Assembly (NCBI GenBank): GCA_021773395.1
Contig: JAJFKB010000010.1
Coordinates: 211,343-275,342, forward strand
Source: Gammaproteobacteria bacterium
GTDB lineage: Bacteria; Pseudomonadota; Gammaproteobacteria; Pseudomonadales; IMCC2047
DNA: 64,000 nt
Direction: 5' to 3'
A model generated the notes under the pieces. That model ran no database searches and was not told the DNA's origin. It saw nothing but the letters and a program-made list of their open reading frames with translations. Positions 1,661 to 64,000 of this stretch are shown here, piece by piece (the stretch's first letter is position 1; every line of letters starts with the position of its first letter). The position numbers and the translations under genes were made by a program.

Positions 1661-3844
1661 TTAAATATTTGGATATTCCGGAGAAGCCTGCATAAAATGC
1701 TTGAACTCCTGTAACGGCATTGGCTTCGCCATCAAAAACCCTTGCGCGAATTCACATTCCTTAGCCTGAGTCAAAGCGAGCTGCTCTTCGAGCTCAATTC
1801 CTTCAATTACCAAATCAAGTTGCAGAGCCTTAGCCATTTGGACGAGCACGTCAAAAAGCGTTCTATCTTGCTGCGAGCTGAGTATATTAGCGACAAAACT
1901 CTTGTCAATTTTAACAATATCAACGGGATATCGACGCAGATAATTTATGCTGGAAAAGCCCGTACCAAAATCATCAATGGCCACTTTGAAGCCCTTTGAT
2001 TTCAGATAGCGAATATTTTCCAGGTAGTAGTTATCATCGGCCATTAACAACGACTCAGTGATTTCGAAGGTAAACTGTTGCGGCGCCAGATTATGCTGCT
2101 GCACAATTGGCAACCACTGTCGCAGTGAATCCTCTCTACGAAACTCGCTGGCGCTGCGATTAACAGAAACCTCTATTTCAATATTTTCTCGCTGCAATGC
2201 CACCATATCCTGGCAAACTTGTTCGAGCACCCATAAGCCCAATTGACGAATAAAGCCTGTTTTTTCGGCAACTGGAATAAACTCCACCGGCGAGATCCAG
2301 CCTTTTTCAGGGTGACTCCATCGCAGCAATGCCTCGCAACGGCTAAATCGGCCACTGCGCAAATCTAGAATGGGCTGGTAGTGCACTTCAAATTGCTCTT
2401 TTTCCAAGGCGCTAACCAATCCATGATACATTTCCACATGCTTGTCAGCCTGCTGCCGTAAAGAAACATTAAAGAAATGCAGCGTATTTTTCCCGGAATC
2501 CTTGGCCGCATACATTGCTCGGTCGGCGTGTTGCAGTAAGGTCGCCCCATCCAAGCCATCTTGCGGGTAGAAGGTTAAACCAGCACTTATCGTGATGATC
2601 AAATCCTGCCCTTCAACTGAGTAGGGCTCACTCAAATCATCAATCAGCCTTTTTGTCCACAACTCCGCCTGCACGGGATCACTCATACCACGAAGAACGA
2701 TGACAAACTCGTCCCCTCCCAGTCGAGCTAGAAAATCAACGGTACGAATACTGCTTTCCATCCGCTCGGAAACAGAAATCAATAAACCATCCCCGATATT
2801 GTGGCCGAGGCTGTCGTTAATATTTTTAAAATTATCTAGATCAATAAATAACAGGCAAAACGGCTCAACGTTATCTTCACCCCCATCTCGCTCAGAATAG
2901 GTAATTCGTTTCAAAAAGCGACCCAGCTGCTTGCGATTTGGTAACCCCGTGAGATGATCATGGTTTGCCTGTTCGTGTAATTCCGCAAAATGCGATTTAA
3001 CTAAAGCCCGACTGCGCATCGTTAAAATAACAACCCAACTCAAAAGCAAACTTAAAACAATACCGACGGCCCAGATACGGATAGTACGCGCGACTGGCAT
3101 CTGCCACCCTGCCTTTGGGAGAATCGCAAGCTCCCAGCGACCAAGTGGTAATGAGATATCAATTTTTATCGCATCACTTTGAAAAACATCTGATTCCCCA
3201 AAGACTGGAGTACCCTGTAAATCGCTTTCTAGAACGAGCCTTAGTGCTATCTGATAATCCTTGCTTAACTCAAGAATACCGGCATCTTCCAGCAAATCTT
3301 CAATATTGATAACAACCGATATCAAACCCCAGAAGTGCTTGGAAGCATTGTTCAGAAAAACGGGAACACGGGCAATAAGGGCTTGCCCTCCCTGCACCAG
3401 CTCAACCGGCCCAGCCAATACAATCTCTCTGGCTCTGACAGCCCGTAACACTGCCTCCCTTTGCTGTTCATTCTGTCGGTAATCCAGTCCAATCGCTTTT
3501 TCATTACTTTTAAGCGGAAATACATATTGCACCACCAAGTCTGGCGCCAAGGCGACGTGCCGAACATTCACACCACTTTCCATATAGTGCTGAACTAACT
3601 GCTCAATTTTATTTTGATTAATAACGGAATTGGTTAATATCTCGGCCCGCAGACCACGGGCCACGACCAAATTAGCATCGATCAGACTTTCCAACCGTGC
3701 AGCATGTCCTGCCGCCTTCTGGTACAAATCAAGGCGAGACTGCTGTTGGCTATATTTTGTCTCAGCCTGGTAAAAGCCGGCTACACAGACCATTCCAATC
3801 GCAAATACCGCTAGAGATATTAAAAAGCTCTGTTTGCTATCCAT
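1661..3844 (-). CDS. CHASE-GGDEF-EAL cyclic-di-GMP signalling protein
   Basis: Inner-membrane sensor of 727 residues with both c-di-GMP synthesis and degradation modules. TM1 is at about 7-27, then a periplasmic CHASE-like sensor region (about 45-245, with LAPDLVVQYVFPL), TM2 at about 255-276, GGDEF domain at about 290-460 and EAL domain at about 472-715. The GGDEF motif is intact (376-380), and RTVD five residues upstream is a product-inhibition I-site. The EAL motif is CEALLRW (504-506), with later catalytic motifs DDFGTGFSSINYL and VIEGIE. All key residues are present, so either activity is possible; many such hybrids act mainly as phosphodiesterases. It stands alone, and the ligand of the sensor domain cannot be read from the sequence. 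Confidence 0.93.
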   Translation of the reverse strand: MDSKQSFLISLAVFAIGMVCVAGFYQAETKYSQQQSRLDLYQKAAGHAARLESLIDANLVVARGLRAEILTNSVINQNKIEQLVQHYMESGVNVRHVALAPDLVVQYVFPLKSNEKAIGLDYRQNEQQREAVLRAVRAREIVLAGPVELVQGGQALIARVPVFLNNASKHFWGLISVVINIEDLLEDAGILELSKDYQIALRLVLESDLQGTPVFGESDVFQSDAIKIDISLPLGRWELAILPKAGWQMPVARTIRIWAVGIVLSLLLSWVVILTMRSRALVKSHFAELHEQANHDHLTGLPNRKQLGRFLKRITYSERDGGEDNVEPFCLLFIDLDNFKNINDSLGHNIGDGLLISVSERMESSIRTVDFLARLGGDEFVIVLRGMSDPVQAELWTKRLIDDLSEPYSVEGQDLIITISAGLTFYPQDGLDGATLLQHADRAMYAAKDSGKNTLHFFNVSLRQQADKHVEMYHGLVSALEKEQFEVHYQPILDLRSGRFSRCEALLRWSHPEKGWISPVEFIPVAEKTGFIRQLGLWVLEQVCQDMVALQRENIEIEVSVNRSASEFRREDSLRQWLPIVQQHNLAPQQFTFEITESLLMADDNYYLENIRYLKSKGFKVAIDDFGTGFSSINYLRRYPVDIVKIDKSFVANILSSQQDRTLFDVLVQMAKALQLDLVIEGIELEEQLALTQAKECEFAQGFLMAKPMPLQEFKHFMQASPEYPNI

Positions 3845-31350: not shown

Positions 31351-31426
31351 TGGCGTCCCCTAGGGGGTTCGAACCCCTGTTACCGCCGTGAAAGGGCGGT
31401 GTCCTAGGCCTCTAGACGAAGGGGAC
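31351..31426 (-). tRNA. tRNA-Glu (anticodon TTC)
   Basis: 76-nt cloverleaf on the minus strand. The acceptor GTCCCCT pairs with AGGGGAC, followed by G and encoded CCA. The anticodon loop CCTTTCACG gives TTC. The T-arm contains GGTTCGAAC. It is second in a two-tRNA operon. Confidence 0.97.
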
Positions 31427-31441
31427 AAAACCTTCTAAAAA

Positions 31442-31517
31442 TGGTGGAGCTAAGCGGGATCGAACCGCTGACCTCAACACTGCCAGTGTTGCGCTCTCCC
31501 AGCTGAGCTATAGCCCC
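31442..31517 (-). tRNA. tRNA-Ala (anticodon GGC)
   Basis: 76-nt cloverleaf with GGGGCTA acceptor, TAGCTCC 3' strand, discriminator A and encoded CCA. The anticodon loop CACTGGCAGTG gives GGC, and the T-arm has GGTTCGATC. It is first in the tRNA-Ala/tRNA-Glu operon, 15 bases apart. Confidence 0.97.
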
Positions 31518-53693: not shown

Positions 53694-54413
53694 TCATAAA
53701 GCGTAAGGGTTCTCACTTGTCACCAACTCCTTTGTTGTAAGCAACCTGCTACGCCCCACCTCAAGTCCCTCTAGGGAAATATGTCCCACAGAAACTCGAT
53801 GAAGTGCCAACACTTCATTTTGAAAAAAACCAAACATTCGTTTAACTTGATGATACTTGCCTTCAATCAGTGAGAGCTTGGCGGTGTACTCGGAGAGTAT
53901 CTCTAAGCATGCCGGCTGAGTTGTAATGTTTTCATAACCAAAATAGATACCCTCTCGAAACGCCGCAATATACTCATCACTCAATGGCTTAGACAAGGTA
54001 ACCTCATACGTCTTTGCGAGCTTTGTCTCGGGTAAACTTATCCTGCGCGACCAGGCCCCATCGTTGGTCAATAACACCAGTCCCGTTGTATTAAAATCCA
54101 GGCGTCCAACAATGTGCAGTTCGTTCTTTTGGGGGTGCTGAATAAGGTCCAACACGGTAGAGTGTTTAAGGTCTTTAGTCGCGCTAACAACTCCCTGGGG
54201 TTTATTCAGCATGATATAAACGGGATTCTTATCTTTTAAGCAGTTGCCATCCAATACGACATGAGTGAATTCCGTCACTTTTTGTTGAATTGAATGCGCC
54301 ACATGTCCATCCAAAAGAATCCGTTTTTGGGCAATTAGAAGACGCGTATCTGAAAGCGAAAAAACACTATTCTGGCTAATAAAACGATCAAGTCGGTTGG
54401 TCTTGGATTTCAT
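53694..54413 (-). CDS. RsuA/RluE-family pseudouridine synthase
   Basis: rRNA modification enzyme of 239 residues. It has an N-terminal S4-like RNA-binding region (RLDRFISQNSVFSLSDTRLLIAQKRILLDG) and the catalytic domain NKPQGVVSATKDLKHSTVLDL, HIVGRLDFNTTGLVLLTNDG with the catalytic Asp in GRLDxxTxGL, and GKYHQVKRMFGFFQNEVLALHRVSVGHISL. The ATG at 54413 is chosen; the frame is open to a GTG at 54449. A TATAAT box lies only 7 bases before the ATG on the minus strand, so the message may be nearly leaderless. It is the last non-cassette gene before the array. Confidence 0.88.
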   Translation of the reverse strand: MKSKTNRLDRFISQNSVFSLSDTRLLIAQKRILLDGHVAHSIQQKVTEFTHVVLDGNCLKDKNPVYIMLNKPQGVVSATKDLKHSTVLDLIQHPQKNELHIVGRLDFNTTGLVLLTNDGAWSRRISLPETKLAKTYEVTLSKPLSDEYIAAFREGIYFGYENITTQPACLEILSEYTAKLSLIEGKYHQVKRMFGFFQNEVLALHRVSVGHISLEGLEVGRSRLLTTKELVTSENPYAL

Positions 54414-54625
54414 GAAATCATTATAATCACTGTATGACACTGGATTCACGCACTACCGCGTATCTATTGTCCGATTTTAAATGCTGAAATTTAAGACCTC
54501 ACCAGCCTTCCTGAAACATAACGCCTGGTTAAACTTCAAAGCGGAAAAGCGGCCGCAGCTATTTTTCATATAATTATCCGATGTGTTGTCTTTTAAAATA
54601 AATGCGTCCCCTTTTTCCGGTTAAT

Positions 54626-55012
54626 TTACTGGGTGTCTGCTTGTTTTGGCATTAAGTACCAAAGAACGAAAGCGACTAAAAACAATGCTGGAATATCTCC
54701 CAGCATATTCGCATGTTCAGTTTCATCAACGATTGCTTGCACAAACATTATTCCAGCGTGAACAATACTAGACCAAATTGTAAACCATATGAGACTTATA
54801 TTCGCCATAGGGGCTTTTGCAGCACGAACCAAAAACACCCCTAAAGTTACGTAAATACCCATAATCATTTGTTCATATTCTGGTTGTGCCGGTGTCCAGC
54901 CCCAACCAGAAGGCCAAATAACCATCATCATTGCTGGAACACCCACAATGAAAATCGCACCAAACACATAAAGCGCGACACCTAAATACTTGAGTTTTTT
55001 ATCTTCTTGCAC
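54626..55012 (-). CDS. DUF6632-type membrane protein
   Basis: Integral membrane protein of 128 residues with four hydrophobic helices. It matches the pattern I recall for DUF6632: MMMVIWPSGWGWTPAQPEYEQMIMGIYVTLGVFLVRAAKAPMANISLIWFTIWSSIVHAGIMFVQA, ending LGDIPALFLVAFVLW. Function unknown. It is first of the run of small minus-strand genes that continues to the window end and is probably cassette-borne. The sequence on its left (54450-54625) has ACATAACGCC (54516-54525), a possible attC end, but no convincing partner. Confidence 0.75.
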   Translation of the reverse strand: MQEDKKLKYLGVALYVFGAIFIVGVPAMMMVIWPSGWGWTPAQPEYEQMIMGIYVTLGVFLVRAAKAPMANISLIWFTIWSSIVHAGIMFVQAIVDETEHANMLGDIPALFLVAFVLWYLMPKQADTQ

Positions 55013-55103
55013 GGCCTTCTCCAGTAGTTATTTTTATTCTTCTTGCTTTGGGGCGTGCTGCGTAGTGGCGAGTCCATATATGACCCCAGCCTCTTGTTCG
55101 TGA

Positions 55104-55172
55104 CCTTAACGCTTCCATAATTTACCGACTGAAGCTCAGCGGAAAGCGGTCAAATTGACGGCCTTGTCAAAC
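55104..55172 (-). repeat. Possible degenerate attC site
   Basis: CCTTAAC (55104-55110) and GTCAAAC (55166-55172) would be the outer boxes, the second with one departure from GTTRRRY. It lies directly left of the stop of the gene at 55175, as in other cassettes. The internal stem is weak. Confidence 0.35.
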
Positions 55173-55174
55173 AC

Positions 55175-55423
55175 TTACTGGCCCATGATTTTTAAAGCAA
55201 TATATGGTGCTACCATAAAAACTAATGTCACTATTTTATAATTGCTCAAAAAATCAAAATACTTGGAGCTTAATTCCTTTTCGTCTATTTCAAACATCTT
55301 ACTATGAATAGAAGATATTGTTCCTCTCATAAATATAAACATTAAGGTAGCGAGAAAAAGATAACCAACATTGATGACTGATGCCCATCCTAACAACTCA
55401 GTTAATTGTGAAATAGTCATCAT
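55175..55423 (-). CDS. DUF6868-type small membrane protein
   Basis: Protein of 82 residues with two hydrophobic helices (VINVGYLFLATLMFIF and IVTLVFMVAPYIALKIMG) around a charged middle, ISSIHSKMFEIDEKELSSKYFDFLSNYK. I associate this pattern with DUF6868; function unknown. Start codons are paired (MM). The 140 bp to the right (55424-55565) has no clear attC, although TTTAAC near 55463 could be one end. Confidence 0.65.
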   Translation of the reverse strand: MMTISQLTELLGWASVINVGYLFLATLMFIFMRGTISSIHSKMFEIDEKELSSKYFDFLSNYKIVTLVFMVAPYIALKIMGQ

Positions 55424-55565
55424 AACTTTTCCCTCTTGTTATCAAATGATTTCTGGTACGTATTTAACACGAAGGTAATGGGCAATTTGGCTGCAAAGCA
55501 ACGCTTAAGGCTATCCAGTCGACGGCGGTTATTGACCGCTTGCTATGTGCCGCCTCTCTATGAAA

Positions 55566-55889
55566 TTAATTGACCCACACCCCGCTGGTTACTTGGCAAT
55601 CTATAGCATCTAGGGCCATATGCACACACAAGCCAATACCAACGAGTCTTATCTTAGGCATCTTTGGTACAAAGCAAAGTGCAACGTAGCAATAAATAAA
55701 CCACAACTCATGTAATGGATGGAATCCAATACTACAGCGATTCGGGTCGTATATCGGATCAGCAATCAGGTGGTCGATATCTACGAGCATTGTCGCAATC
55801 ATTAAGAAATAGGCTAGCATCCAGCTTTTTCTAAAGAAAAGGCCAGTTAGAATGACTGGAGTTACAAAGTGCAGGGCTAAGTGAAACAT
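55566..55889 (-). CDS. DUF6122-type membrane protein
   Basis: Protein of 107 residues with three to four membrane segments. The highly typical stretch MLVDIDHLIADPIYDPNRCSIGFHPLHELW (acidic and His-rich, possibly metal-binding) fits DUF6122, a relative of YdjM-like membrane hydrolases by pattern. Function unknown. It is probably the cargo of a cassette bounded on the right by the attC at 55915. Confidence 0.72.
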   Translation of the reverse strand: MFHLALHFVTPVILTGLFFRKSWMLAYFLMIATMLVDIDHLIADPIYDPNRCSIGFHPLHELWFIYCYVALCFVPKMPKIRLVGIGLCVHMALDAIDCQVTSGVWVN

Positions 55890-55914
55890 GTGTCTTTTGT
55901 ACTATCTCTCTGGC

Positions 55915-55974
55915 ACATAACCCCCACCACCCAGGCTAACGACTTGTTGTGAATCTGGGTGCTGGGGGTTATGT
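55915..55974 (-). repeat. attC site
   Basis: ACATAAC (55915-55921) and GTTATGT (55968-55974) are complementary outer boxes. CCCCCA and CACCCAG on the left pair with CTGGGTG and TGGGGG on the right, giving a near-perfect hairpin. The stop codon of the gene at 55969 overlaps the right box. Confidence 0.85.
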
Positions 55975-56322
55975 TTCAAAATCATATTTCACCTCAACTG
56001 CATCAGCTGTAATTACAGTAATAATCTTAATACCGTTAGTGAAATACATTTCCTTGCTTTCAAGAGTTTTATTATCTGCGTAAGTAACTCTAAATTTTAT
56101 GCCGGCCTCATCATTAATGCTGAAACTATGCGAGGACATTGGCTGAATTTTGCCAATATTTTTTTCATTGTCCCGCCATATTGCAACAACTGAAACTATG
56201 CTGGGAGAAGAGTTTTTTATTTCAAATTCCGGATCAAAGAAAGACGGTGTAATAAATATCGTCAAAACAGCAAAAAAAAGTATGGCCGAGATAGTTAAGC
56301 ATTTAAACAAGGTCTTTATCAT
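55969..56322 (-). CDS. Cassette-borne exported/anchored protein, unknown
   Basis: Protein of 117 residues with one N-terminal hydrophobic segment (CLTISAILFFAVLTIFITPSFF) that could be a signal or anchor, and a soluble mostly beta remainder. No family recognised. It sits in a cassette with the attC at 55915. The 104 bp to the next gene (56323-56426) includes CCCCGTTCCGGGG but no clear attC. Confidence 0.6.
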   Translation of the reverse strand: MIKTLFKCLTISAILFFAVLTIFITPSFFDPEFEIKNSSPSIVSVVAIWRDNEKNIGKIQPMSSHSFSINDEAGIKFRVTYADNKTLESKEMYFTNGIKIITVITADAVEVKYDFET

Positions 56323-56426
56323 TTTGCGCCCCGTTCCGGGGACCGCTTACTTAACTCCAGGCACCCCACACGTACCGATCAACAATTAAACAAACTGTCC
56401 CGGAACTCCCTTCATCATTTATTTAA

Positions 56427-56993
56427 CTAGCCAGGTTTCCGCGCTAAAATGGTCGCAAACTGCAATTGCGCGCCATTGTGCATAGTACCTACATTTTCAT
56501 TGTACTTAATCAGCTCCCACCCCTCGTAAGCCTCACGCAACTGCCCTGCTTTTAGGGTAAAAGGGAAACGGACTGGACACGGGTGTTCTTCAGTGCTCAT
56601 AGCGCAAACAATCAGGTTATAACCACCGGACAGCGTATGCTCTTGCATATCGGCAATAACAGCACCAACACGAGCTGAGTCGAGAAACATTAAGGTTACA
56701 GTGCAAGCAATAAAGCCATAATCCACACCAAGCTCGGCATTATTGATGTCGTACACCTGCGCCTTAATGTTGGCTATCCCCTCTTTACTCACAATTTGAT
56801 GCAGCAAATCAATAGCGCCGGGGTTGTTGTCTACTGCGATTACGTTAAAGCCAAGCTGGCTAAGGTATAAGGCATTACGTCCATTGGAACAGCCCATGTC
56901 TAAGGCATTGCATGGCTCAATAATTTTGCACGCCTCTACCACTTCACTATGCGCAGGGTTTAAGTCGTAACGGCTATTTAGGTCGACAGTCAT
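56427..56993 (-). CDS. tehB: TehB-like SAM-dependent methyltransferase
   Basis: Methyltransferase of 188 residues close to TehB: LNSRYDLNPAHSEVVEA, then ALDMGCSNGRNALYLSQLGFNVIAVDNNPGAIDLL (motif I) and FIACTVTLMFLDSARVGAVIADMQEHTLSGGYNLIVCAMSTEEHPCPVRFPFTLKAGQLREAY. TehB proteins detoxify tellurite and related anions by methylation. The ATG at 56993 is preferred to GTG at 57002. It is cassette cargo; TehA is absent. Confidence 0.87.
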   Translation of the reverse strand: MTVDLNSRYDLNPAHSEVVEACKIIEPCNALDMGCSNGRNALYLSQLGFNVIAVDNNPGAIDLLHQIVSKEGIANIKAQVYDINNAELGVDYGFIACTVTLMFLDSARVGAVIADMQEHTLSGGYNLIVCAMSTEEHPCPVRFPFTLKAGQLREAYEGWELIKYNENVGTMHNGAQLQFATILARKPG

Positions 56994-57125
56994 GGTATCC
57001 ACTTAGTTTTTGAAATGAAGGCCAGTATGTTACTACTTTTTGGACACAGTTAAATGGCAATAGCCAAAGCTTTTAGAACTAACAAGGCTTTTCTCGCTTA
57101 TCGGTGAAAAGGCTTACAAACTTGT

Positions 57126-57188
57126 AAAAAAGGGGCAGGTGACACTTGAAAGTAGTTCTCGTTTCTATTTGTCACCGACCCCTTTTTT
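57126..57188. repeat. REP-like hairpin with 19-bp arms
   Basis: AAAAAAGGGGCAGGTGACA (57126-57144) and TGTCACCGACCCCTTTTTT (57170-57188) are inverted with 17 of 19 bases matching, 25 bases apart. It lies in the 352-bp region between tehB and the MarC-type gene, upstream of tehB. It resembles REP/MITE-type units with GTCACCGACCCC ends; it may also act as a terminator. Confidence 0.6.
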
Positions 57189-57244
57189 CCGTTTTCGCCA
57201 CGCCCATTTTACCATTTATGAATATCTATACTCATATGTATGTG

Positions 57245-57339
57245 CAGTTATCGCCCTGCGTAAGTGGCGAGTTGCTCTGGCGCATTTGGAGTGAGAGGCA
57301 GCGTGCGGAAAATGCCTCCACTGCCGGGATTTGTTATGC
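57245..57339 (-). repeat. attC site
   Basis: The right box GTTATGC (57333-57339) and a degenerate left box at AGTTATC (57246-57252) bracket about 95 bp with inner complementary GC-rich segments. It lies just left of the stop of the MarC-type gene at 57346. Confidence 0.6.
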
Positions 57340-57345
57340 ATCATT

Positions 57346-57957
57346 CTATGCAATCCCAAAATACAACTTAACCCCTGAGAGAAGATTTGTCATAGCCACG
57401 GAGGCCAAAATCAAACCCATTACCCGGCTTACAACATTAGCGCCACTTCGACCGATAACCTTGTTGATTCCATTGGACATCAACATCATGACGTACACGA
57501 CAATAAGAACCGCTAGTAGCACCAAGAAGGTCTGGGCCTGTTCAGAAATACTGTATCGAGCATTTTCTGTTAGGAGTACTGCTGCCAATATCGCTCCTGG
57601 ACCGGCGATGGATGGAACAGCCAATGGAAATATTGCCGTCTCGTGCTGATCATCAACAAGATGGATCTCCTCGTCGGGCTTGCTCTCCCCGAAAATCATG
57701 GTAAGAGCAAACAAAAACAATACGATGCCACCTGCGATTTGAAACGCTGACAGGGGAATCGACATGGCAACAAGGATAAGTTCGCCTGCGACCACGAAGA
57801 ACAAGAGAATTCCGGCCGCCGCCAAGGTCGCTATGAGCGCGATGCGATGTTTCGCCTTTTCATCGTATTGACTTGTAACTGCGATAAAAACCGGCACCGT
57901 GCCAATGGGGTCGACGACAGCGAAGAAAGTAATGAACGTAGCCACGATATCAATCAT
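57346..57957 (-). CDS. MarC/UPF0056-family membrane protein
   Basis: Integral membrane protein of 203 residues with six helices. The start FITFFAVVDPIGTVPVFIAVTSQYDEKAKHRIA, the mid motif FPLAVPSIAGPGAILAAVLL and the end VSRVMGLILASVAMTNLLSGVKLYF are characteristic of MarC/YhgN-type proteins. Despite the name no drug-resistance role is established. It is cassette cargo between attC sites 57245 and 57979. Confidence 0.9.
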   Translation of the reverse strand: MIDIVATFITFFAVVDPIGTVPVFIAVTSQYDEKAKHRIALIATLAAAGILLFFVVAGELILVAMSIPLSAFQIAGGIVLFLFALTMIFGESKPDEEIHLVDDQHETAIFPLAVPSIAGPGAILAAVLLTENARYSISEQAQTFLVLLAVLIVVYVMMLMSNGINKVIGRSGANVVSRVMGLILASVAMTNLLSGVKLYFGIA

Positions 57958-57978
57958 CTTTACGCACTCGAATTTGAC

Positions 57979-58045
57979 GCTAAACGTCGCAATTACCAGG
58001 CGGCGCTTCTTTTTGCGCCGTCCAGGTTGAATTGCCTTGTTAGGC
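57979..58045 (-). repeat. attC site
   Basis: GCTAAAC (57979-57985) and GTTAGGC (58039-58045) are the outer boxes. The inner arms GGCGGCGC and GCGCCGTCC pair. It belongs to the ferritin-like cassette, whose stop is at 58051. Confidence 0.85.
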
Positions 58046-58050
58046 GCTGT

Positions 58051-58338
58051 CTATTTATGTGCAATAGGTTTTGCGGTAAATAGATAGTCTTTTAGTTCTT
58101 TATCCATGGCTGGATCTTTTCTTCTTATCCACTCTAGAATCATAGCTGCATGTTCTTTTTCCTCGTCTCGATTATGTGCAAGTATTGCTCTTAGCTCATC
58201 ATTCTTACACACATCAACTCGCTGGTTATACCAATCTACCGCTTCCAATTCTTCCATAAGAGAAGTAATTGCTCTATGCATATCTCGTGTTTCATCTGAA
58301 ATTTCATCTACTGGTTCATGATAACCTTCATTTGACAT
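58051..58338 (-). CDS. Encapsulated-ferritin-like protein (EncFtn family)
   Basis: Four-helix-forming iron oxidoreductase of 95 residues. HRAITSLMEELEAVDWYNQRVDVCKNDELRAILAHNRDEEKEHAAMILEWIRRKDPAMDKELKDYLFT closely follows R. rubrum EncFtn, including the ferroxidase Glu of EELEAVDWY and the Glu/His pair of DEEKEH. EncFtn normally ends with a short peptide that targets it to an encapsulin shell. This protein stops after TAKPIAHK, has no such tail, and no encapsulin gene is in the window. TGTCTTCTCC-type upstream sequence provides GGAGA before the ATG. It is an integron cassette; the neighbouring cassette is a ZIP metal transporter. Confidence 0.88.
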   Translation of the reverse strand: MSNEGYHEPVDEISDETRDMHRAITSLMEELEAVDWYNQRVDVCKNDELRAILAHNRDEEKEHAAMILEWIRRKDPAMDKELKDYLFTAKPIAHK

Positions 58339-58366
58339 TGTCTTCTCCTATGTTTTATGTGCATAT

Positions 58367-58402
58367 GCCTAGTGCCGAAAATCATCTTTGGCAAAGTTAG
58401 GC
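58367..58402 (-). repeat. Short attC site
   Basis: GCCTAGT (58367-58373) and GTTAGGC (58396-58402), with TGCCGAAA and TTTGGCA as inner arms. At 36 bp it is shorter than usual and may have lost its middle. It ends the ZIP-transporter cassette. Confidence 0.6.
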
Positions 58403-58418
58403 GGTTAATTTTATAATT

Positions 58419-59153
58419 TTAAGCCTTTGACAAAACAATTATAGTGGCTACTAGAACACCACCGCCAAGCGCAACAAAACTATATTTTTTATGCTCCTGT
58501 TCCGCTTTAGGTAAAAGATGGGTTGCACCAACATAAACTAATGCTCCTGCTGAAAGTGACAACAAAGCGCCAAGCATTGGTTTGTCGATTTCACTTATCA
58601 GTGGATATGATATGAGCATACCCAGCGGAGTGGTTAATGCAGCGGCAAAAAAGGAGAGGATCATAGCTTTGCTTTCTTTAAATCCTCCTTTTACTAATAA
58701 TAAATAAGTAATTATACCTTCAGGAAATTCATGTAATACCATACCCGCAGTTGCGAGAAAACCAGTGAACACACTTACAGAAAAAGCAATTGAGTAAACA
58801 AACCCATCTATGAATGAATGAAAACCAATACCTATCATTGGTACTACCCCAATACCATACTTCTCTTTTTCGGGTTCTTTATGGCATACGAATGCAGTAA
58901 TAAAACGATTAAAACAATGTAAGCAAAAAAAACCGACCAAGAGATAAATTGGACTATTTGGGTTCATTGCCAACGATTTTGGGATGATATGAAGAAACGA
59001 TGCTGAAATAAGTACGCCTGCTGCAAAACACATGAAATATGTGGAGTTACGCTGCCCCCAACCGACATAATTACGTATGGTATAAATACCTATTGTAGTA
59101 ACAAAGGCTGCAAGGCTACTAGTAGCCAGAGCTGTCCAAAAAGTATTTACCAT
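58419..59153 (-). CDS. ZIP-family metal transporter
   Basis: Integral membrane metal-ion importer of 244 residues, eight helices. Family features: CFAAGVLISASFLHIIPKSL in TM2, IGIGFHSFIDGFVYSIAF in TM4 and VLHEFPEGIITYLLLVKGGF in TM5, with the His/Glu/Asp metal ligands (HS.xD; HEFPE). It imports Zn2+, Fe2+ or another divalent cation into the cytoplasm. It shares a cassette with a small zinc-ribbon reading frame just upstream and lies next to the ferritin-like cassette. Confidence 0.92.
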   Translation of the reverse strand: MVNTFWTALATSSLAAFVTTIGIYTIRNYVGWGQRNSTYFMCFAAGVLISASFLHIIPKSLAMNPNSPIYLLVGFFCLHCFNRFITAFVCHKEPEKEKYGIGVVPMIGIGFHSFIDGFVYSIAFSVSVFTGFLATAGMVLHEFPEGIITYLLLVKGGFKESKAMILSFFAAALTTPLGMLISYPLISEIDKPMLGALLSLSAGALVYVGATHLLPKAEQEHKKYSFVALGGGVLVATIIVLSKA

Positions 59154-59162
59154 TTGTTTGTG

Positions 59163-59362
59163 TTAGCCATCTTCACTACTATTCTTCTGCTTCTTTAGCA
59201 GAAGTTCATGATGATGTAAGCCTTCTCGAATCATCTTAGCCCACATTTTGAGCATTTCTCATCTTGACATGGAATGCCCTGATTGCGTTCCGTCCTATTA
59301 TTGCACTTAGGGCAGATACAGTAACCGCCTTCGCCCATTTCATGTCTACGTTCATTTTTCAT
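59163..59362 (-). pseudogene. Small zinc-ribbon protein with a frameshift
   Basis: Begins MKNERRHEMGEGGYCICPKCNNRTERNQGIPCQDEKCSKCG and, after a one-base loss in a G run near 59235, continues in another frame as AKMIREGLHHHELLLKKQKNSSEDG. Joined, it is a rubredoxin-like small protein with two CxxC pairs and a conserved REG..HHELL segment. GAGGTG precedes the ATG. It ends 9 bp before the ZIP gene, so the two share a cassette. If the frameshift is real the product is 43 residues. Confidence 0.6.
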
Positions 59363-59390
59363 TAGCACCTCAAGGTTGACTATATTTATC

Positions 59391-59488
59391 GCCTAACGCC
59401 TTGCTCACCTGCGCAGCAAGTTGGCGCGTATTTTTACTCCGCAAAAATCGTGACAGCTTGCGGAGTCCGGTGAAGCAATTTGTTAAGC
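59391..59488 (-). repeat. attC site
   Basis: GCCTAAC (59391-59397) and GTTAAGC (59482-59488) bracket 98 bp. Inner arms TTGCTCACC and GGTGAAGCAA, and ACTCCGCAA with TTGCGGAGT, pair well. It belongs to the cytochrome cassette at 59514. Confidence 0.88.
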
Positions 59489-59513
59489 ATAGCCGCTTAT
59501 TATTTGTAATTAT

Positions 59514-59993
59514 TTATTGGCGAAAAGTTGCATGACATTGAACGCAATAACCCAACGTAGATTGTAATGCACGAAGTGATTTAGTTGTATCTTTGGTTTT
59601 CAATGCATCACCCAGAGAATCACCACTTTCATGAAATGCCAACCCTAATGCAGTGAAATCTTCATTATTGAACATATTACACATCTTTCTCATTTCTTCA
59701 GTCAGTCCCAGCTTTGAATGTGCTATTTCAGAAGCCTTCTGAAACTCCTTCTCCGCTATTAAACTCGTAATGGCCTGCACTGCCTCTAAATGAGATCTCA
59801 TATTCGATAATTGATGCTGCTTCATTTCTGGCGAGAGGCCAAGAGAGATTCTTCCGTCAACTATCGAATGTTTCATGTTGTGATGCTGATGCATCATTTC
59901 CCCCGCCAAATTTGCTTTATCTTCGGCATAAGAAAACATAGCTATTCCTGCAATGAACAACATCACAGATAATTTTGATACTTGTTCAATCAT
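59514..59993 (-). CDS. Periplasmic cytochrome c'-like protein
   Basis: Exported protein of 159 residues. The signal is LSVMLFIAGIAMFSYA. The mature part is mostly helical and Met/His-rich (GEMMHQHHNMKHS), and ends with a C-terminal haem site CVQCHATFRQ, the position and style of class II cytochromes c. A second-ATG start (59993) after GGGGA is preferred to 60005. Cassette cargo. The His/Met-rich N-terminus may bind copper, or merely reflect composition. Confidence 0.8.
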   Translation of the reverse strand: MIEQVSKLSVMLFIAGIAMFSYAEDKANLAGEMMHQHHNMKHSIVDGRISLGLSPEMKQHQLSNMRSHLEAVQAITSLIAEKEFQKASEIAHSKLGLTEEMRKMCNMFNNEDFTALGLAFHESGDSLGDALKTKDTTKSLRALQSTLGYCVQCHATFRQ

Positions 59994-60018
59994 AGATTTC
60001 CCCATTTAAATTTATAGT

Positions 60019-60075
60019 GTCTAACGCCGAAAGAAAGCGCCGCTTACAGCGATCGCTTTGCTTGTTTTGTTAAGC
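60019..60075 (-). repeat. attC site
   Basis: GTCTAAC (60019-60025) and GTTAAGC (60069-60075) with inner arms AAAGCGCCGC and GCGATCGCTTT. At 57 bp it is the compact type. It closes the HigBA cassette. Confidence 0.85.
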
Positions 60076-60369
60076 CTACGATGCAAATTTATATGGACGA
60101 ACTTGCAGCATAGACTTATGTTGGCGGGCCGCCCAAAGATCATAGGCATTTTGGAGCCTGAGCCAATGGTCTGCGGATGGTTTTTTAAACGCCAGTTCGA
60201 GTCGTAACGCCATTTCTGGAGTAATGGAACCCCTGCCATTTAAGACTTTTGATAAGGTTTTACGGCTTATGTTTAGGTGCTCAGAGACATCAGTGATTGT
60301 TACGCCAGTTGGCTCAATTACTAACTCTTTGAGAATTTCACCCGGATGAGCCGGATTGTGCATACTCAT
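60076..60369 (-). CDS. higA: HigA-type antitoxin
   Basis: Helix-turn-helix antitoxin of 97 residues: [75 protein letters not shown] is the classic HigA/VapI sequence. It neutralises HigB and represses the operon. It overlaps the end of the toxin gene (shared base 60369), so translation is coupled. The order toxin-antitoxin is typical of HigBA. TA cassettes are thought to stabilise large integron arrays. Confidence 0.94.
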
Positions 60370-60647
60370 TAGTGATAATCCTCGTAGTTAACTATTTCAA
60401 TATCTTTACCAGTGAAGCGGAAAGTCACCCGCCAATTCCCACTTACCGCTACTGACCAAATGCCTTTGCGGCTTCCTTTTAATTCATGCAAGCGAAGACC
60501 AGGTAAATCCATATCATTTGGGCTTTCAGCTTGATCAAGGTTAGTAAGAATTAGCCTTAAGTGTTTAATGTGCTTCGCTTGAATTCCAGAGGTTTTACCA
60601 GAGTTGTAAAATTTCTCTAGGCCCTTATGTATAAAACTAATTATCAT
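60369..60647 (-). CDS. higB: HigB-type mRNA interferase toxin
   Basis: RelE/HigB-fold ribosome-dependent RNase of 92 residues: [38 protein letters not shown], then [43 protein letters not shown], with the Arg/His/Tyr residues expected at the active site and C-terminus. A palindrome, TAACCCATATGGTTA (60660-60674), lies over the promoter region and is a candidate HigA operator. Confidence 0.94.
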
Positions 60648-60659
60648 GAGGGAGAATTG

Positions 60660-60674
60660 TAACCCATATGGTTA
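60660..60674. promoter_or_regulatory. Palindrome at the higBA promoter
   Basis: TAACC-CATAT-GGTTA is a perfect inverted repeat 12 bp upstream of the higB start. This is the usual place and form of a HigA operator. Confidence 0.5.
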
Positions 60675-60697
60675 CACTGTCAAGTGCGGGTATTGAG

Positions 60698-60821
60698 GCT
60701 TAACGCCGCAAACAGCGGCAGACTTGTTGTTGATTGTTTTGTGCAACAATGGCGCAGCCATGCACAAAACGAGCGACGGCAAGGCTGTCCAAGGAGCGCA
60801 GCGACTGATGCTTTGTTAGGC
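60698..60821 (-). repeat. attC site (long)
   Basis: GCTTAAC (60698-60704) and GTTAGGC (60815-60821) bracket 124 bp. The interior folds on itself, with TTGTGCA/TGCACAA and GCGCAG-type pairs. It belongs to the GFA-family cassette. Confidence 0.85.
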
Positions 60822-61235
60822 ACCTTGGGGAAAATCTTGATTATTTGAAGTAGGCATATTATTTGGAAAAGATACCCAATCATGTTTTGATGCACACCAA
60901 GCCGCTGCTATAGGTTGAGGGAATTTAGGATCGGAAAAACAACCAACTGCCATACCTACAGATTGAGGAACAAAAGCGGCCTCCCAGAAAACGGTAGAAC
61001 CACAGTCGGGACAGAAATGGCGCTCGATTTTACCACCTGAATCACCTATGCTTGTAAAAGTCTTAAATTTCCCATTTTTAGCTACCACCTGATCATTTGC
61101 AAAATAGGCGCTTACCCCAAAAACTGACCCAGTTCTTTTTTGACAGTTGGTACAGGAGCAGGCAACAACCACTTTTGGTTCGTCGTTTACTTCAACTTGT
61201 AGTTCTCCGCAGGAACAGCTAGCTTTTCTTGACAT
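60816..61235 (-). CDS. GFA-family (glutathione-dependent formaldehyde-activating-like) protein
   Basis: Zinc-binding protein of 139 residues with the Mss4-like fold: SCSCGELQVEV, VVACSCTNCQKRTGSVFGVSAYF and HFCPDCGSTVFWEA supply the cysteine ligands. Family members include glutathione-dependent formaldehyde-activating enzyme, but most have no proven substrate. The ATG at 61235 follows AAGGATAG; the frame is open to 61262 without support. Cassette cargo. Confidence 0.88.
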   Translation of the reverse strand: MSRKASCSCGELQVEVNDEPKVVVACSCTNCQKRTGSVFGVSAYFANDQVVAKNGKFKTFTSIGDSGGKIERHFCPDCGSTVFWEAAFVPQSVGMAVGCFSDPKFPQPIAAAWCASKHDWVSFPNNMPTSNNQDFPQGA

Positions 61236-61277
61236 GATTTCTATCCTTATCTTATTAAGCATTCCGAAGATTTAAGT

Positions 61278-61300
61278 GCCTAACAGCTAATTATAAGGCC
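61278..61300 (-). repeat. Truncated attC site
   Basis: GCCTAAC (61278-61284) and TTATAAGGCC (61291-61300). The right box is complementary to the 5' end of its own cassette (GGCCTTATAAC at 61723-61733), the signature of one cassette's two ends, so this is a real but much shortened attC. Confidence 0.6.
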
Positions 61301-61303
61301 GAT

Positions 61304-61708
61304 TCATAGTTCTTCGAATGGCAGGTCAAGCCACACTCCAAAAGATGTTTTCTTGAAAACGCCTAACTTCTTACCACCAAATATTTTCGCATTGCATGAA
61401 ATGATTATGCCTTCATTCCCTGTCTTTCCAATTCTTTTTCGATAGTACCGGGCATCCTCTCGCGATAAATAGCCAACGGTCTTGCCATTTACATCAACTC
61501 TTATTGCTTTGTTATCGTGAGGGTTTTTGTCTTCATAATGAAGTTCGGCAACCACCTCTTTTTTACTTCCTTCTTTCGTGTGGCCGCCACATAATTTATT
61601 CAGGTGCTTTTGATAGTGTGACTCACCAACAATCTCCAAATCGAAGCCACCATCACCTTCAACGAACACTTTTTCCTTTCTACCAAATAGTTTCGAAAAA
61701 ATTCCCAT
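61304..61708 (-). CDS. HIRAN-domain protein
   Basis: Protein of 134 residues. After a basic start (MGIFSKLFGRKEK), residues 20-110 match the HIRAN fold: DLEIVGESHYQKHLNKLCGG, VVAELHYEDKNPHDNKAIRVDVNGKTVGYLSREDARYYRKRI. HIRAN domains recognise 3' DNA ends and stalled forks and usually belong to larger helicases; here it is alone. Cassette cargo bounded by matching GGCCTTATAA ends. Confidence 0.82.
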   Translation of the reverse strand: MGIFSKLFGRKEKVFVEGDGGFDLEIVGESHYQKHLNKLCGGHTKEGSKKEVVAELHYEDKNPHDNKAIRVDVNGKTVGYLSREDARYYRKRIGKTGNEGIIISCNAKIFGGKKLGVFKKTSFGVWLDLPFEEL

Positions 61709-61725
61709 TTTTGAATGCTCTAGGC

Positions 61726-61831
61726 CTTATAACGCCCGTCTCACCGAGCAAATTTTTGATGACGGCTTTTTTGCGTGTCTTTGCAAAAAAGGTGGTAGCG
61801 AACATTTGCCCGGTGGAGCCGTTTGTTAGGC
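61726..61831 (-). repeat. attC site
   Basis: CTTATAAC (61726-61733) and GTTAGGC (61825-61831). Inner arms TCACCG...CGGTGGA and GCTTTTTTGC/GCAAAAAAGG pair. Stop codon of the LysE gene overlaps the right box. Confidence 0.87.
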
Positions 61832-62457
61832 TATTTTATATTTTCCAAAGTTACCAATTTTATTCCAGTAGCAATCAATGCTGTACCAGCTGCTTTATTG
61901 ATAAGATTTATTACCCAAGATTTCACCTGTTTTCTAGCTAATTGTGCCCCCATGCGGCCAAACAGGCTGTAAACCACTAAATCAGCTAAAAAGCAGGTGA
62001 GACCCATAAGAATCATTTGTACTATTATAGGTTCTTTAGGGTCCACAAACTGCGGTAATAAGGCTGAAAAATACATTAACGCTTTGGGGTTAGCTAATTG
62101 AATAACAAGACCATTTGAAAAGGCTTTCGCAGGATTCACTGTGGTTAATTGAACATCAATTTTAATTGGCCCTGCTTTGCTGAAAATTGCCGAAACACCT
62201 AGGAACAGAAGATAAGCAACACCAAACCATTTAATGATAGAGAATACCAAATTTGACGCTACGATTAACGATGCGATACCAGTTGCCGACAATATAAAAA
62301 ACAATACATCAGCACATGCCACACCAAGAACACTTAAAAAAGTTAATTTTGAATTGTGGGAGACAGCCTGTTTAGCGACAGTGATAGCCGCTGGTCCAGG
62401 AACCAAAATAAGCATCACAGTTGTAACTAGAAAGAAAGTATATAGTTCAATATCCAT
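61831..62457 (-). CDS. LysE/RhtB-family exporter (2), cassette-borne
   Basis: Six-helix amino-acid efflux protein of 208 residues: FFLVTTVMLILVPGPAAITVAKQAVSHNSKLTFLSVLGVACADVLFF, then GLVIQLANPKALMYFSALLPQFVDPKEPI. It is not closely similar to the chromosomal LysE at 38855. Cassette cargo; its two cassette ends (GTTAGGCTA at each side) are complementary, so the cassette is intact. Confidence 0.9.
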   Translation of the reverse strand: MDIELYTFFLVTTVMLILVPGPAAITVAKQAVSHNSKLTFLSVLGVACADVLFFILSATGIASLIVASNLVFSIIKWFGVAYLLFLGVSAIFSKAGPIKIDVQLTTVNPAKAFSNGLVIQLANPKALMYFSALLPQFVDPKEPIIVQMILMGLTCFLADLVVYSLFGRMGAQLARKQVKSWVINLINKAAGTALIATGIKLVTLENIK

Positions 62458-62473
62458 GCTTACCCTTCATTTA

Positions 62474-62566
62474 GCCTAACGCCTTGCCAAGGGGAAGACA
62501 AACCAACGGTTTGGCTGTCCCGCGGAGGCCCGTAGGGCCGGAGCAGACTTCGGCAACTTGTTATGA
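62474..62566 (-). repeat. attC site
   Basis: GCCTAAC (62474-62480) and GTTATGA (62560-62566). Inner arms GCCTTGCC and GGCAACTT, ACCAACGGTTTGG and GGCCCGTAGGGCC form stems. It closes the lipoprotein cassette at 62570. Confidence 0.88.
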
Positions 62567-62569
62567 GTT

Positions 62570-63100
62570 TCACTGCACCTTCTCAAATCGATAGCCCGAT
62601 TCTTCGGTTTTATTAACCTGCAAACTTGGTATCAAGCAATTTGCATGCGACTCGTTAAATTTTAGCGTATAAGAGCTATTAGCTAATAGACTCTCTGAGA
62701 AGCGATAAAAACAAAATGTATCGTAGCCAGAAGAGTAGCTTGACAAATTCGAGTAGACACTCAGTGGGGACAAAATCTCTCCGTTTTCATCCTCTAGTTC
62801 AACGAAACTCATACTACACTCTTTATTTTGTAGTATGCCACTATCAAAGGCGAGCCAGACTAGTGGGTCTTGTTTGCTGTAATTGTACGGAATCGGAATG
62901 CCAAAAACGGATTCGAATTTCTTTGGCTCATGCGTGACCCCAGTTGTCTGAATTTTTCCCGCATTGCATGTATATATGCCACCTGCCCAATTTGGATCAT
63001 TTTCGTTCGGAACATATGAGATTCGGTGATAGTACGTTCCGCATGCTGTAACAGCCAGACAAGATATTAAAGCAATGTAAGATTTCACGGCTTTACTCAT
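62570..63100 (-). CDS. Cassette-borne lipoprotein, unknown function
   Basis: Protein of 176 residues. A signal with lipobox LAVTACG (Cys20) indicates a lipid-anchored envelope protein. The rest is beta-rich with several cysteines (YTCNAGK, NKECSMSF, DTFCFY, HANCLIP) that could form disulfides. No family recognised. The ATG at 63100 lies inside the cassette's own recombination box (GTTATGAG), so insertion next to any attC recreates the start codon. Confidence 0.68.
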   Translation of the reverse strand: MSKAVKSYIALISCLAVTACGTYYHRISYVPNENDPNWAGGIYTCNAGKIQTTGVTHEPKKFESVFGIPIPYNYSKQDPLVWLAFDSGILQNKECSMSFVELEDENGEILSPLSVYSNLSSYSSGYDTFCFYRFSESLLANSSYTLKFNESHANCLIPSLQVNKTEESGYRFEKVQ

Positions 63101-63165
63101 AACGCTCACCACACGGGCGCGTGATAGCGCGTCCTAGCAGCGATTGTGCTGGTGCTTGTTAGGTG
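63096..63165 (-). repeat. attC site
   Basis: CTCATAAC (63096-63103) and GTTAGGT (63158-63164). Inner arms GCTCACCACA and TGTGCTGGTGC, GCGCGTGATAGCGCG form stems. It belongs to the cassette of the gene at 63200. Confidence 0.85.
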
Positions 63166-63199
63166 GTTTTGACTCATTTTAATTTGCAGTAACCTCTGG

Positions 63200-63475
63200 T
63201 TAATTCTGTCCAAGAAGTGCCAAAACTAGTGAAACAGTGAACATTAATAGACAAAACGCCGCTGCCCATTCTAAATATTTTATATATGGAATATACTTAT
63301 TTCGCACAAAAGCTTCATAGCCACCTTTCTCCCGTAATTCCTTTGACGTGCAATCCCCGCCACGAAGAATATCATTCTTTGTGAGCTCGGATTTTCTGAA
63401 CGCAAATATCGCAACAGTTCTTACAAAGAGTAAGAAAACAGCAAATAGAAATGTAAAGATTTGTATCTTGTCCAT
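63200..63475 (-). CDS. Cassette-borne two-helix membrane protein
   Basis: Protein of 91 residues with hydrophobic helices at about 5-27 and 65-88, separated by a charged loop (SELTKNDILRGGDCTSKELREKGGYEAFVRNKYIPYIKY). No family recognised. It lies between attC sites 63096 and 63481. Confidence 0.6.
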   Translation of the reverse strand: MDKIQIFTFLFAVFLLFVRTVAIFAFRKSELTKNDILRGGDCTSKELREKGGYEAFVRNKYIPYIKYLEWAAAFCLLMFTVSLVLALLGQN

Positions 63476-63480
63476 AAAAA

Positions 63481-63530
63481 CACTTAACGCCCAAAGCAGC
63501 GGCTCGTCCGCTGCCTTTGCTGGTTAAGTG
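63481..63530 (-). repeat. attC site (compact, near-perfect palindrome)
   Basis: CACTTAAC (63481-63488) and GTTAAGTG (63523-63530) are exactly complementary. Inner arms AAAGCAGCGG and CCGCTGCCTTT pair around CTCGT. At 50 bp it is one of the smallest and cleanest sites of the array. Confidence 0.92.
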
Positions 63531-63569
63531 GGTAGCTCTTGGGGGTCAAACGATTTTCCTGAGCCTCGA

Positions 63570-63827
63570 TCATTTAGACTTCCGTTTCTCGGCGATGAAC
63601 TCAGCCGCTGAATATAAAAGCCCCACAAATAGCCCTCCTGCTATTAAGATGAGCAAATAGCTCATTATCGTGAGAAAACCATACAGAGCCCATGCCAATG
63701 CAAGCAGAATCAATATACCGAAGACCATAATCCCACACTCTTCGATGATAGTAATATTCTCGAGCTCTATAAATCGACTCTCAAGCTGACGAACTATACC
63801 TAGAATATCGGGTAACTTATCACTCAT
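63570..63827 (-). CDS. Cassette-borne membrane protein, unknown
   Basis: Protein of 85 residues. A charged N-terminal 30 residues (MSDKLPDILGIVRQLESRFIELENIT) is followed by two adjacent hydrophobic segments (IMVFGILILLALAWALYGFL and LLILIAGGLFVGLLYSAAEF) and a basic tail. No family recognised. Its cassette ends (CACTTAAC on the right at 63833, GTTAAGTG on the left) are complementary. Confidence 0.6.
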   Translation of the reverse strand: MSDKLPDILGIVRQLESRFIELENITIIEECGIMVFGILILLALAWALYGFLTIMSYLLILIAGGLFVGLLYSAAEFIAEKRKSK

Positions 63828-63832
63828 ATAGA

Positions 63833-63974
63833 CACTTAACGCCTAGATAACCAACCTTGAACGCCTAGATAACCAACCTTGCAAAAACCAAAAAAAGATC
63901 CATTACCCTGATGGTTGGCACGGGTCTCTCGTATGAAATGCGTTTGCAAGGTTGTGTTCATCGTCTTGTTGCAC
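63833..63974 (-). repeat. attC-like site at the window edge with internal tandem duplication
   Basis: CACTTAACGCC begins at 63833 and a possible right box, TTGTTGCAC, ends at 63974. CAACCTTGCAAA (63874-63885) and TTTGCAAGGTTG (about 63943-63954) form the inner stem. A 22-bp unit starting AACGCCTAGATAACC is repeated exactly at 63838 and 63860. It would close a further cassette whose gene lies beyond the window. Confidence 0.6.
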
Positions 63975-64000
63975 GTGATCGCTGGCACGGACTAGCGGGG

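Follow-up and report, generated by a model that had tools for sequence, protein, structure and literature searches.

Chromosomal integrons with one attI site are already known, as are clusters of attC sites lacking integron integrases (CALINs), CALINs at conserved loci and mobilization in trans, going by the accessible portions of two sources (PMC9024848, PMC12444791). The second of these, in the portions available, reports conserved CALIN loci in Xanthomonas and CALINs that are mobilizable in trans. Class 1 is the only one in which IntegronFinder 2.0 detects attI, according to the accessible text of its description (PMC9024848). DeltaattI-type gene cassettes have been described in class 1 and class 2 integrons; in the available part of that account, attC is replaced by a piece of attI lying before G^TT, mostly 8-12 nt long (PMC12901181).

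Here, we describe a 64,000-nt stretch of DNA (the window) from the right end of contig JAJFKB010000010.1 (C26) of the gammaproteobacterial assembly GCA_021773395.1. Positions 54522-64000 of the window hold about 15 integron cassettes in an array, every one of them read leftward (minus strand). We consider it quite probable that this is the distal part of a chromosomal integron array, and that the integron of this genome is distributed over several attI-Pc platforms with one SOS-type integron integrase (IntI), encoded on contig C13. One platform would lie beside intI, and the others would stand elsewhere on the chromosome without intI, each with its own row of cassettes. On balance, we also lean towards a fuller model in which vertically inherited, intI-less attI-Pc satellites with inverted arms are stocked in trans by a distant, SOS-controlled IntI, each satellite having its own promoter. 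Such a distributed integron would explain many CALINs, and its platform would spread as a unit.

Cassette array and cassette ends

Evidence for the array came from two models of attC. The first, R1, was trained on ten attC sites of the window; in 19 intI loci from relatives it found 51 sites (E<=1), spread over 12 of the loci, every one on the strand that points away from intI and on the side where the cassettes lie. These 51 sites were used to train a second model, R2, which contains no window sequence. R2 identified ten attC sites in the window, with E values from 3.9e-11 to 0.052, and every one is on the minus strand. A previous sequence-only reading of the window had proposed an integron array with all cargo on the minus strand and had listed 11 attC sites. 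Eight of these (57979, 59391, 60019, 60698, 61726, 62474, 63096 and 63481) were found independently by R2 in the same range of E values, and R2 added two minus-strand sites missing from that list, at 63833-63974 (E 0.0037) and 55103-55174 (E 0.022). The remaining three fared less well: the site at 55915 has R''/R' boxes and is nearly a perfect palindrome, and only R1, whose training set included it, found it; at 57245 and 58367 the R' box is decayed, and R2 missed both. The array as such is supported, and the outcome named in advance as refuting it, that attC models would find no sites, did not occur.

The distal end of the array lies at about position 54521, and a weak R2 match at 54515-54536 (E 1.7) is consistent with this. 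At E<=5, R2 gave no match in window positions 1-54500, in C26:195000-211342 or over the initial 20 kb of C13; a further 19 contig ends or remainders gave none at E<=2. Single attC-like matches occur elsewhere, at C2:606528, C17:35802, C17:122866 and C18:99544, with two more at the left end of C17. The structure of the attC model was set by hand, since RNAalifold found no pairs in the trimmed attC alignment. With this structure, 75.8% of cells are paired, as against 64.0 after shuffling (0/500), and two of five measures failed to beat the shuffles (143/500 and 98/500). A search of Rfam returned no attC family match; it gave two tRNAs and a sub-threshold Thr_leader match on the palindromic attC at 55914. 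A scan that demanded R''/R' complementarity within each site found only two sites per strand, and was set aside because that requirement is wrong for integrated cassettes.

Additional evidence came from the footprint of circular cassettes. The sequence-only reading had noted that the 5' and 3' boxes of several cassettes are complementary, and this complementarity is real. In nine cassettes, the cassette start matches the R'' of its own attC at 44 of 54 variable positions, compared with 29.7 after shuffling, and only 7 of 200,000 shuffles scored as high. With 11 cassettes the score is 56/66 (0/200,000), although the ends of two of these were located by this very rule. The control pairing of R'' with the R' of the same attC, which is the start of the neighbouring cassette, scored 26/60. 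The weakest of the nine cassettes are those carrying 59514-60005 and 57346-57957, with 3/6 each. The window cassettes thus derive from circles, in which a cassette's own 5' start complements its own R''. All genes would also lie on one strand in an ordinary operon, or in a gene cluster whose repeats arose by chance, but we give this explanation almost no credence; it is refuted by the independent model R2, and the cassette-circle footprint and the linkage to attI described below also speak against it.

attI-Pc platforms in the same genome

The right border of the array is the end of C26, which is also the end of the window and cuts a further cassette, X. The last attC of C26 has the R'' sequence GTGCAAC, the complement of the TTGCAC cassette start that stands beside attI on contigs C13 and C6. 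On C13, intI (TIGR02249, 421 bits; cut-off 265) lies 407 bp from the left contig end. The contig also has a LexA-like box, CTGT-N8-ACAG, and an attI followed by the TTGCAC start. A LexA-like CTGT-N8-ACAG box lies near the intI start in 12 of the 17 intI loci examined, this genome included, and LexA would be predicted to control intI. C6 has the same attI and the same start of X as C13, in the predicted orientation, with no intI match in its first 12 kb. The opening 141 bp of C6 are those of C13, and the closing 141 bp of C26 are those of C7. This is the pattern that de Bruijn assembly leaves at a collapsed repeat, suggesting that X is present twice, as {C13, C6}-X-{C26, C7}. A simple C26-C13 neighbourhood was considered and dropped, since the shared contig ends make C6 an equally possible partner.

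Across the contig gap, these data support a junction between the window array and an attI on its right, either on C13 (with intI) or on C6 (without intI). The polarity of the array had led the sequence-only reading to place both attI and intI to the right of the window. For attI this is supported, with X starting directly after attI on both contigs. For intI it holds in part: C13 carries the gene, C6 has none in 12 kb, and either contig may join C26. Whether the window array would be classed as a CALIN, with at least two attC sites and no adjacent intI, hinges on the same choice.

A DNA search of the genome revealed four attI-Pc copies, at C13:1-420, C6:1-340, C2:723905-724098 and C13:62080-62294. 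The copy at C13:88 is beside intI; the other three (C6, C2 and C13:62079) are without it. All four (C13:88, C6, C2:723910 and C13:62079) were recovered by R3, a sequence-only model of 14 intI-linked attI sites, with E values from 5e-11 to 7e-4. By eye, the C2 platform lies beside the end of an EF-Tu gene, with one attC 221 bp further on. The attI regions of C6 and C13 are 90% identical over 340 bp, and 87% identical over the platform alone; their similarity stops at GATCAGAGG, which on C13 lies 68 bp short of the start of intI. Elsewhere in the genome, at G000:C17:32945-35369, there are adjacent tyrosine-recombinase matches, several of them on one strand, and a single attC-like match at C17:35802.

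The platform is about 250-260 bp long (251 bp on C13, from the intI-side edge to the crossover). Its parts are an outer, inverted copy of the attI arm, a promoter-like pair that points outward (TTGATT and TATGAT, spaced by about 17 bp), a set of direct repeats (in this genome, GTGCCAAAG...GTGCCAGAG) and the crossover (A or G)CTG^TT. The promoter-like pair suggests that Pc would be active. The sequence of the inverted arm varies between species and its complementarity is kept: over 31 platforms, arms score 10.9 against their own partner and 8.5 across platforms (0/20,000 permutations), and the 15 intI-linked platforms alone give 11.6 and 8.7 (0/20,000). Two weak R3 matches, G001:C112 and G002:C18, are omitted from this test. 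The inverted arm may be an integrase-binding arm and the outer edge of a spreading unit. By eye, a frame of about 40 codons ending in ...DIVPES(L)* is open inside all four copies in this genome (L009 88-210, minus strand; C6; C2:723910; C13:62079) and in L032; we take it to resemble ORF-11 of class 1 attI.

Platforms without intI in related genomes

A search with R3 across 57 genomes, this one included, was run under stricter filters and gave matches at E<=0.05 in six. About three chance matches would be expected at that threshold over 57 genomes, and the 18 matches at E<=1e-3 were therefore used. Three of these are intI-linked training sites, one has a 32-aa intI remnant (G004:C37), and 14 are without intI in the sequence examined. 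In 11 named genomes, R3 gave 45 matches at E<=1e-4: 11 are the intI loci used for training, a further two are at other intI genes (in one case split over two frames), a truncated intI accounts for one (L255), and 31, spread over nine of the 11 genomes, have no detectable intI. The upstream sequence available is short at two loci, with almost none at L267 and only 779 bp at L257. On contig G061:C5, the match at 68893 is intI-linked and the match at 1273 is an orphan.

Most of the platforms without intI that were examined are followed by attC sites. The sequence downstream was examined for 34 platforms (33 regions), 30 of which are intI-less, and attC was found downstream on the same strand at 27 of the 30. 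Over all 34 platforms, the 84 attC matches at E<=0.1 are without exception on the same strand and downstream; seven control stretches had no attC match at this threshold. In an earlier set of 17 loci, 30 of 31 attC sites (E<=1) were on the same strand and downstream, the exception lying upstream of attI at G018:C42. A number of intI-less platforms in relatives have at least two attC sites and no adjacent intI, as in a CALIN. The first cassettes show the footprint as well: at the 29 of 34 platforms that could be tested, the first-cassette start matches its own R'' at 160 of 174 positions, compared with 88.1 after shuffling (0/50,000), and all 25 intI-less platforms in the test score 5/6 or 6/6. 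The earlier set gave 57/84 versus 32.3 (0/50,000; 14 platforms, two beside intI), a score that includes two misplaced cassette starts or ends and one platform without a core.

Several arrangements were seen among these loci. Genome G018 (L199, L200) has two attI platforms with attC, and one attC is upstream of the L200 attI, which may therefore sit inside an array. In Zhongshania sp. BJYM1, locus L241 (G057:C38) has attI matches at 1489-1560 and 3302-3366, 1.8 kb apart, with attC between them. By eye, a CGTCATTCTGAACTTGATTCAGAATC-like repeat recurs in front of the five intI-less platforms of G026 (L184-L188) and is possibly tied to platform spread.

Evidence bearing on the activity of intI-less platforms came from Microbulbifer. 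Microbulbifer sp. YPW16 and M. yueqingensis share three orthologous platforms, with no intI at either member of a pair; YPW16 has two intI genes and M. yueqingensis has one. The upstream flanks are 94.8, 89.9 and 93.1% identical, and the platforms 76% (over 164 bp), 87% and 70%. In the 6 kb downstream, BLASTN found no shared cassette gene within any pair; no match exceeded 142 bp, and most were at attC, the few others ranging from 30 to about 115 bp. The cassettes therefore differ over the 6 kb compared, and the simplest reading suggested by this comparison is turnover by an IntI acting from elsewhere. IntI would then act in trans on intI-less platforms. At the first of the three sites, R3 found no platform in M. 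donghaiensis (flank 94%) or Microbulbifer sp. NKW57 (83%), and both positive controls were found. A 1.8-kb stretch common to two YPW16 arrays (99.3%) was considered as a shared cassette and ruled out, since it is a transposase; two other YPW16 arrays share a 1.1-kb stretch with 89.6% identity.

An alternative, which we regard as unlikely, is that a plain sedentary chromosomal integron is joined to the C13 intI, and that the intI-less platforms are old integrons minus intI, degraded CALINs that are now inert. The truncated intI at L255 and the remnant at G004:C37 fit this explanation, as does the decay of some window sites (57245 and 58367). Against it stand the three orthologous pairs of platforms, which lack intI in both species and differ in their cassettes over the 6 kb compared; independent loss of intI after cassette exchange in both lineages would fit too, but with more events. 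In several cases, the platforms of a single genome have a left edge in common, with no trace of intI (C6, G004:C21 and Zhongshania), and X stands at two platforms that are only 87% identical.

It is also conceivable, at a very low probability, that the multiple attI sites are an artefact of metagenome assembly or binning. The 141-bp overlaps suggest an assembly at k=141 with collapsed repeats, and several of the relatives are metagenome-assembled genomes. The contigs of the present genome are alike in GC content (0.46-0.50), and tetranucleotide correlation is non-discriminating, as a G004 stretch fits C26 as well as the genome's own contigs do. However, YPW16, a single 4.19-Mb contig titled a complete genome, has six R3 matches at E<=0.01, five of them below 1e-6, and all far apart. 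Genomes titled as strains (M. yueqingensis, Zhongshania sp. BJYM1 and Exilibacterium tricleocarpae) also have several platforms.

While these data are consistent with a distributed integron stocked by a distant IntI, a number of observations weigh against it. Taken singly, only 12 of the 31 platforms reach an arm score of 12.0 (99th percentile, shuffled left arms), and the left inverted repeat is not evident in Zhongshania. Two orphan platforms of the present genome are weak: that on C2 has no CTG^TT core, and that at C13:62079 has no attC within the 4 kb examined. Likewise, 3 of the 30 intI-less platforms have no downstream attC in the sequence examined. R3 found no attI in 51 of the 57 genomes, 26 of which have intI above the cut-off, indicating that R3 covers one clade only. 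Some sites may have lost intI, among them L255 with its truncated gene and G004:C37 with its 32-aa remnant; in G018, which has platforms, no intI exceeds the cut-off. YPW16 and several other genomes have two intI genes, so a single server is not proved, and the comparison of YPW16 with M. yueqingensis is limited to 6 kb downstream. Lastly, the assembly leaves both C13 and C6 as possible partners of the window array.

Cassette contents and relation to known integrons

The cargo of the array comprises LysE, HIRAN, GFA, HigB/HigA, a weak cytochrome c' match, ZIP, EncFtn-like, MarC and TehB, three proteins with domains of unknown function (DUFs) and four open reading frames (ORFs) without a family; every cassette is on the minus strand. 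Reading leftward from the contig end, the 3' end and attC of X, the first cassette after an attI, occupy 63834-64000 and include a 22-bp tandem duplication at 63838-63881, with the remainder of X beyond the contig end. Three cassettes without a Pfam family follow: 63488-63839 (ORF 63570-63827; attC 63481-63531, R2 E 1.1e-7; own-start match 5/6), 63103-63487 (ORF 63200-63475; attC 63096-63166, 3.9e-11; 4/6) and 62480-63102 (ORF 62570-63112; attC 62473-62568, 1.3e-9; 6/6). The cassette at 61733-62479 encodes a LysE-type exporter (61831-62457, PF01810; attC 61726-61833, R2 E 0.003), and that at 61284-61732 a HIRAN-domain protein (61304-61708, PF08797). A GFA-family protein (60816-61262, PF04828) lies in 60704-61283 (attC 60697-60823, R2 E 0.031), and a HigB/HigA-like toxin-antitoxin pair (60369-60647 and 60076-60369; PF05015, PF01381) in 60025-60703 (attC 60018-60077, 5.7e-6).

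Further left, the cassette at 59397-60024 has a cytochrome c' match below the cut-off (59514-60005, PF01322, E 8e-5; attC 59390-59490, R2 E 6e-7; own-start match 3/6). A ZIP-type transporter (58419-59153, PF02535) lies in 58372-59396, where the decayed attC at 58361-58405 is not found by R2 and the own-start match is 5/6. An EncFtn-like ferritin (58051-58338, PF22277) lies in 57985-58371 (attC 57978-58047, R2 E 0.052), and a MarC-family membrane protein (57346-57957, PF01914) in 57250-57984, with a decayed R' in its attC (57245-57341; R1 E 0.008, trained on it; own-start match 3/6). One or two old cassettes at 55921-57249 contain a TehB-like methyltransferase (56427-57002, PF03848) and an ORF at 55969-56322, with the palindromic attC at 55914-55978 not found by R2. 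The three DUF cassettes end the array: DUF6122 (55566-55889, PF19617) in 55502-55920, whose end was located by the match of a decayed R'', GGCACATAGC, to its own start; DUF6868 (55175-55423, PF21742) in 55110-55501 (attC 55103-55174, R2 E 0.022); and DUF6632 (54626-55012, PF20337) in the last cassette, 54522-55109, with the weak R2 match at 54515-54536 and a GGCG^TTATG box.

The chromosomal flank past the array contains a minus-strand pseudouridine synthase gene (53694-54449, PF00849), and the two flanking genes scanned gave PF00849 and PF00006 matches. No pseudouridine synthase homologue was found at E<=1e-15 in G001 or G002, which is uninformative for synteny, and flank proteins of C26, C7, C13 and C6 gave no telling link when searched in relatives' intI loci. 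Within the array, positions 57126-57188 hold a 19-nt inverted repeat (89% complementary; GGTGACA / TGTCACC) that resembles a repetitive extragenic palindrome, and a similar 18-mer is at 54605. Two adjacent minus-strand tRNA genes lie at 31354-31517.

The HIRAN cassette ends differently from its neighbours. At its boundary, between 60816 and 61304 and absent from the list of the sequence-only reading, there are 12 nt of attI and no attC. This segment, at 61282-61295 on the minus strand, is TATAATTAGCTG^TT; it reproduces the genome's own attI for the 12 nt that precede the crossover, so that TTAGCTG^TT stands in place of attC. In the window this 14-mer has a single occurrence, and the attI of C13 (L009) and that of C6 (L157) each contain it once. 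The 3' end of the cassette, GGCCTTATAA, complements its own start. TATAA is common to the cassette's own R'' and attI, and the independent match is therefore only 7 nt plus the crossover. The junction is likely, but not certain, to be a DeltaattI-type cassette end. It resembles the DeltaattI cassettes of class 1 and 2 integrons, as the available part of their description presents them, in having an attI piece in place of attC, and differs in its setting, a chromosomal array of an environmental Pseudomonadales lineage and not a mobile resistance integron (PMC12901181).

If the intI-less platforms are genuine capture sites, such bacteria would carry several short, promoter-headed arrays instead of one long, mostly silent array, with expression and turnover of cassettes distributed along the chromosome. 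Deletion of intI in a culturable Microbulbifer would then put the origin of CALINs to a direct test. Sites without a neighbouring integrase gene that hold cassettes of their own, in this genome and in its marine relatives, suggest that one integrase can stock many chromosomal places. The integron array itself is of a known kind. The literature searched, which took in few subscription papers and no preprints, yielded no account of a genome with several attI platforms lacking intI; within that literature, the multi-attI architecture, with attI-Pc platforms heading intI-less arrays, is new.

The integron of this genome shares with sedentary chromosomal integrons a TIGR02249 intI with a LexA-like box, an attI, a promoter-like Pc, a one-way array, attC sites and cassette footprints. 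It differs in that several attI platforms occur per genome, most without intI, and in that the window array may join either the intI-linked attI of C13 or the intI-less attI of C6. As in the Xanthomonas CALINs, attC clusters lie away from intI, some of them at conserved chromosomal loci; here, however, the clusters are headed by their own attI-Pc platform, whereas no attI is reported at CALINs in the accessible portions of that study (PMC12444791). Integration at attG or other off-target sites, as presented in the same portions, likewise places cassettes outside the main array (PMC12444791), but the targets in the present case are full attI-like platforms with conserved arms and not single consensus sites.

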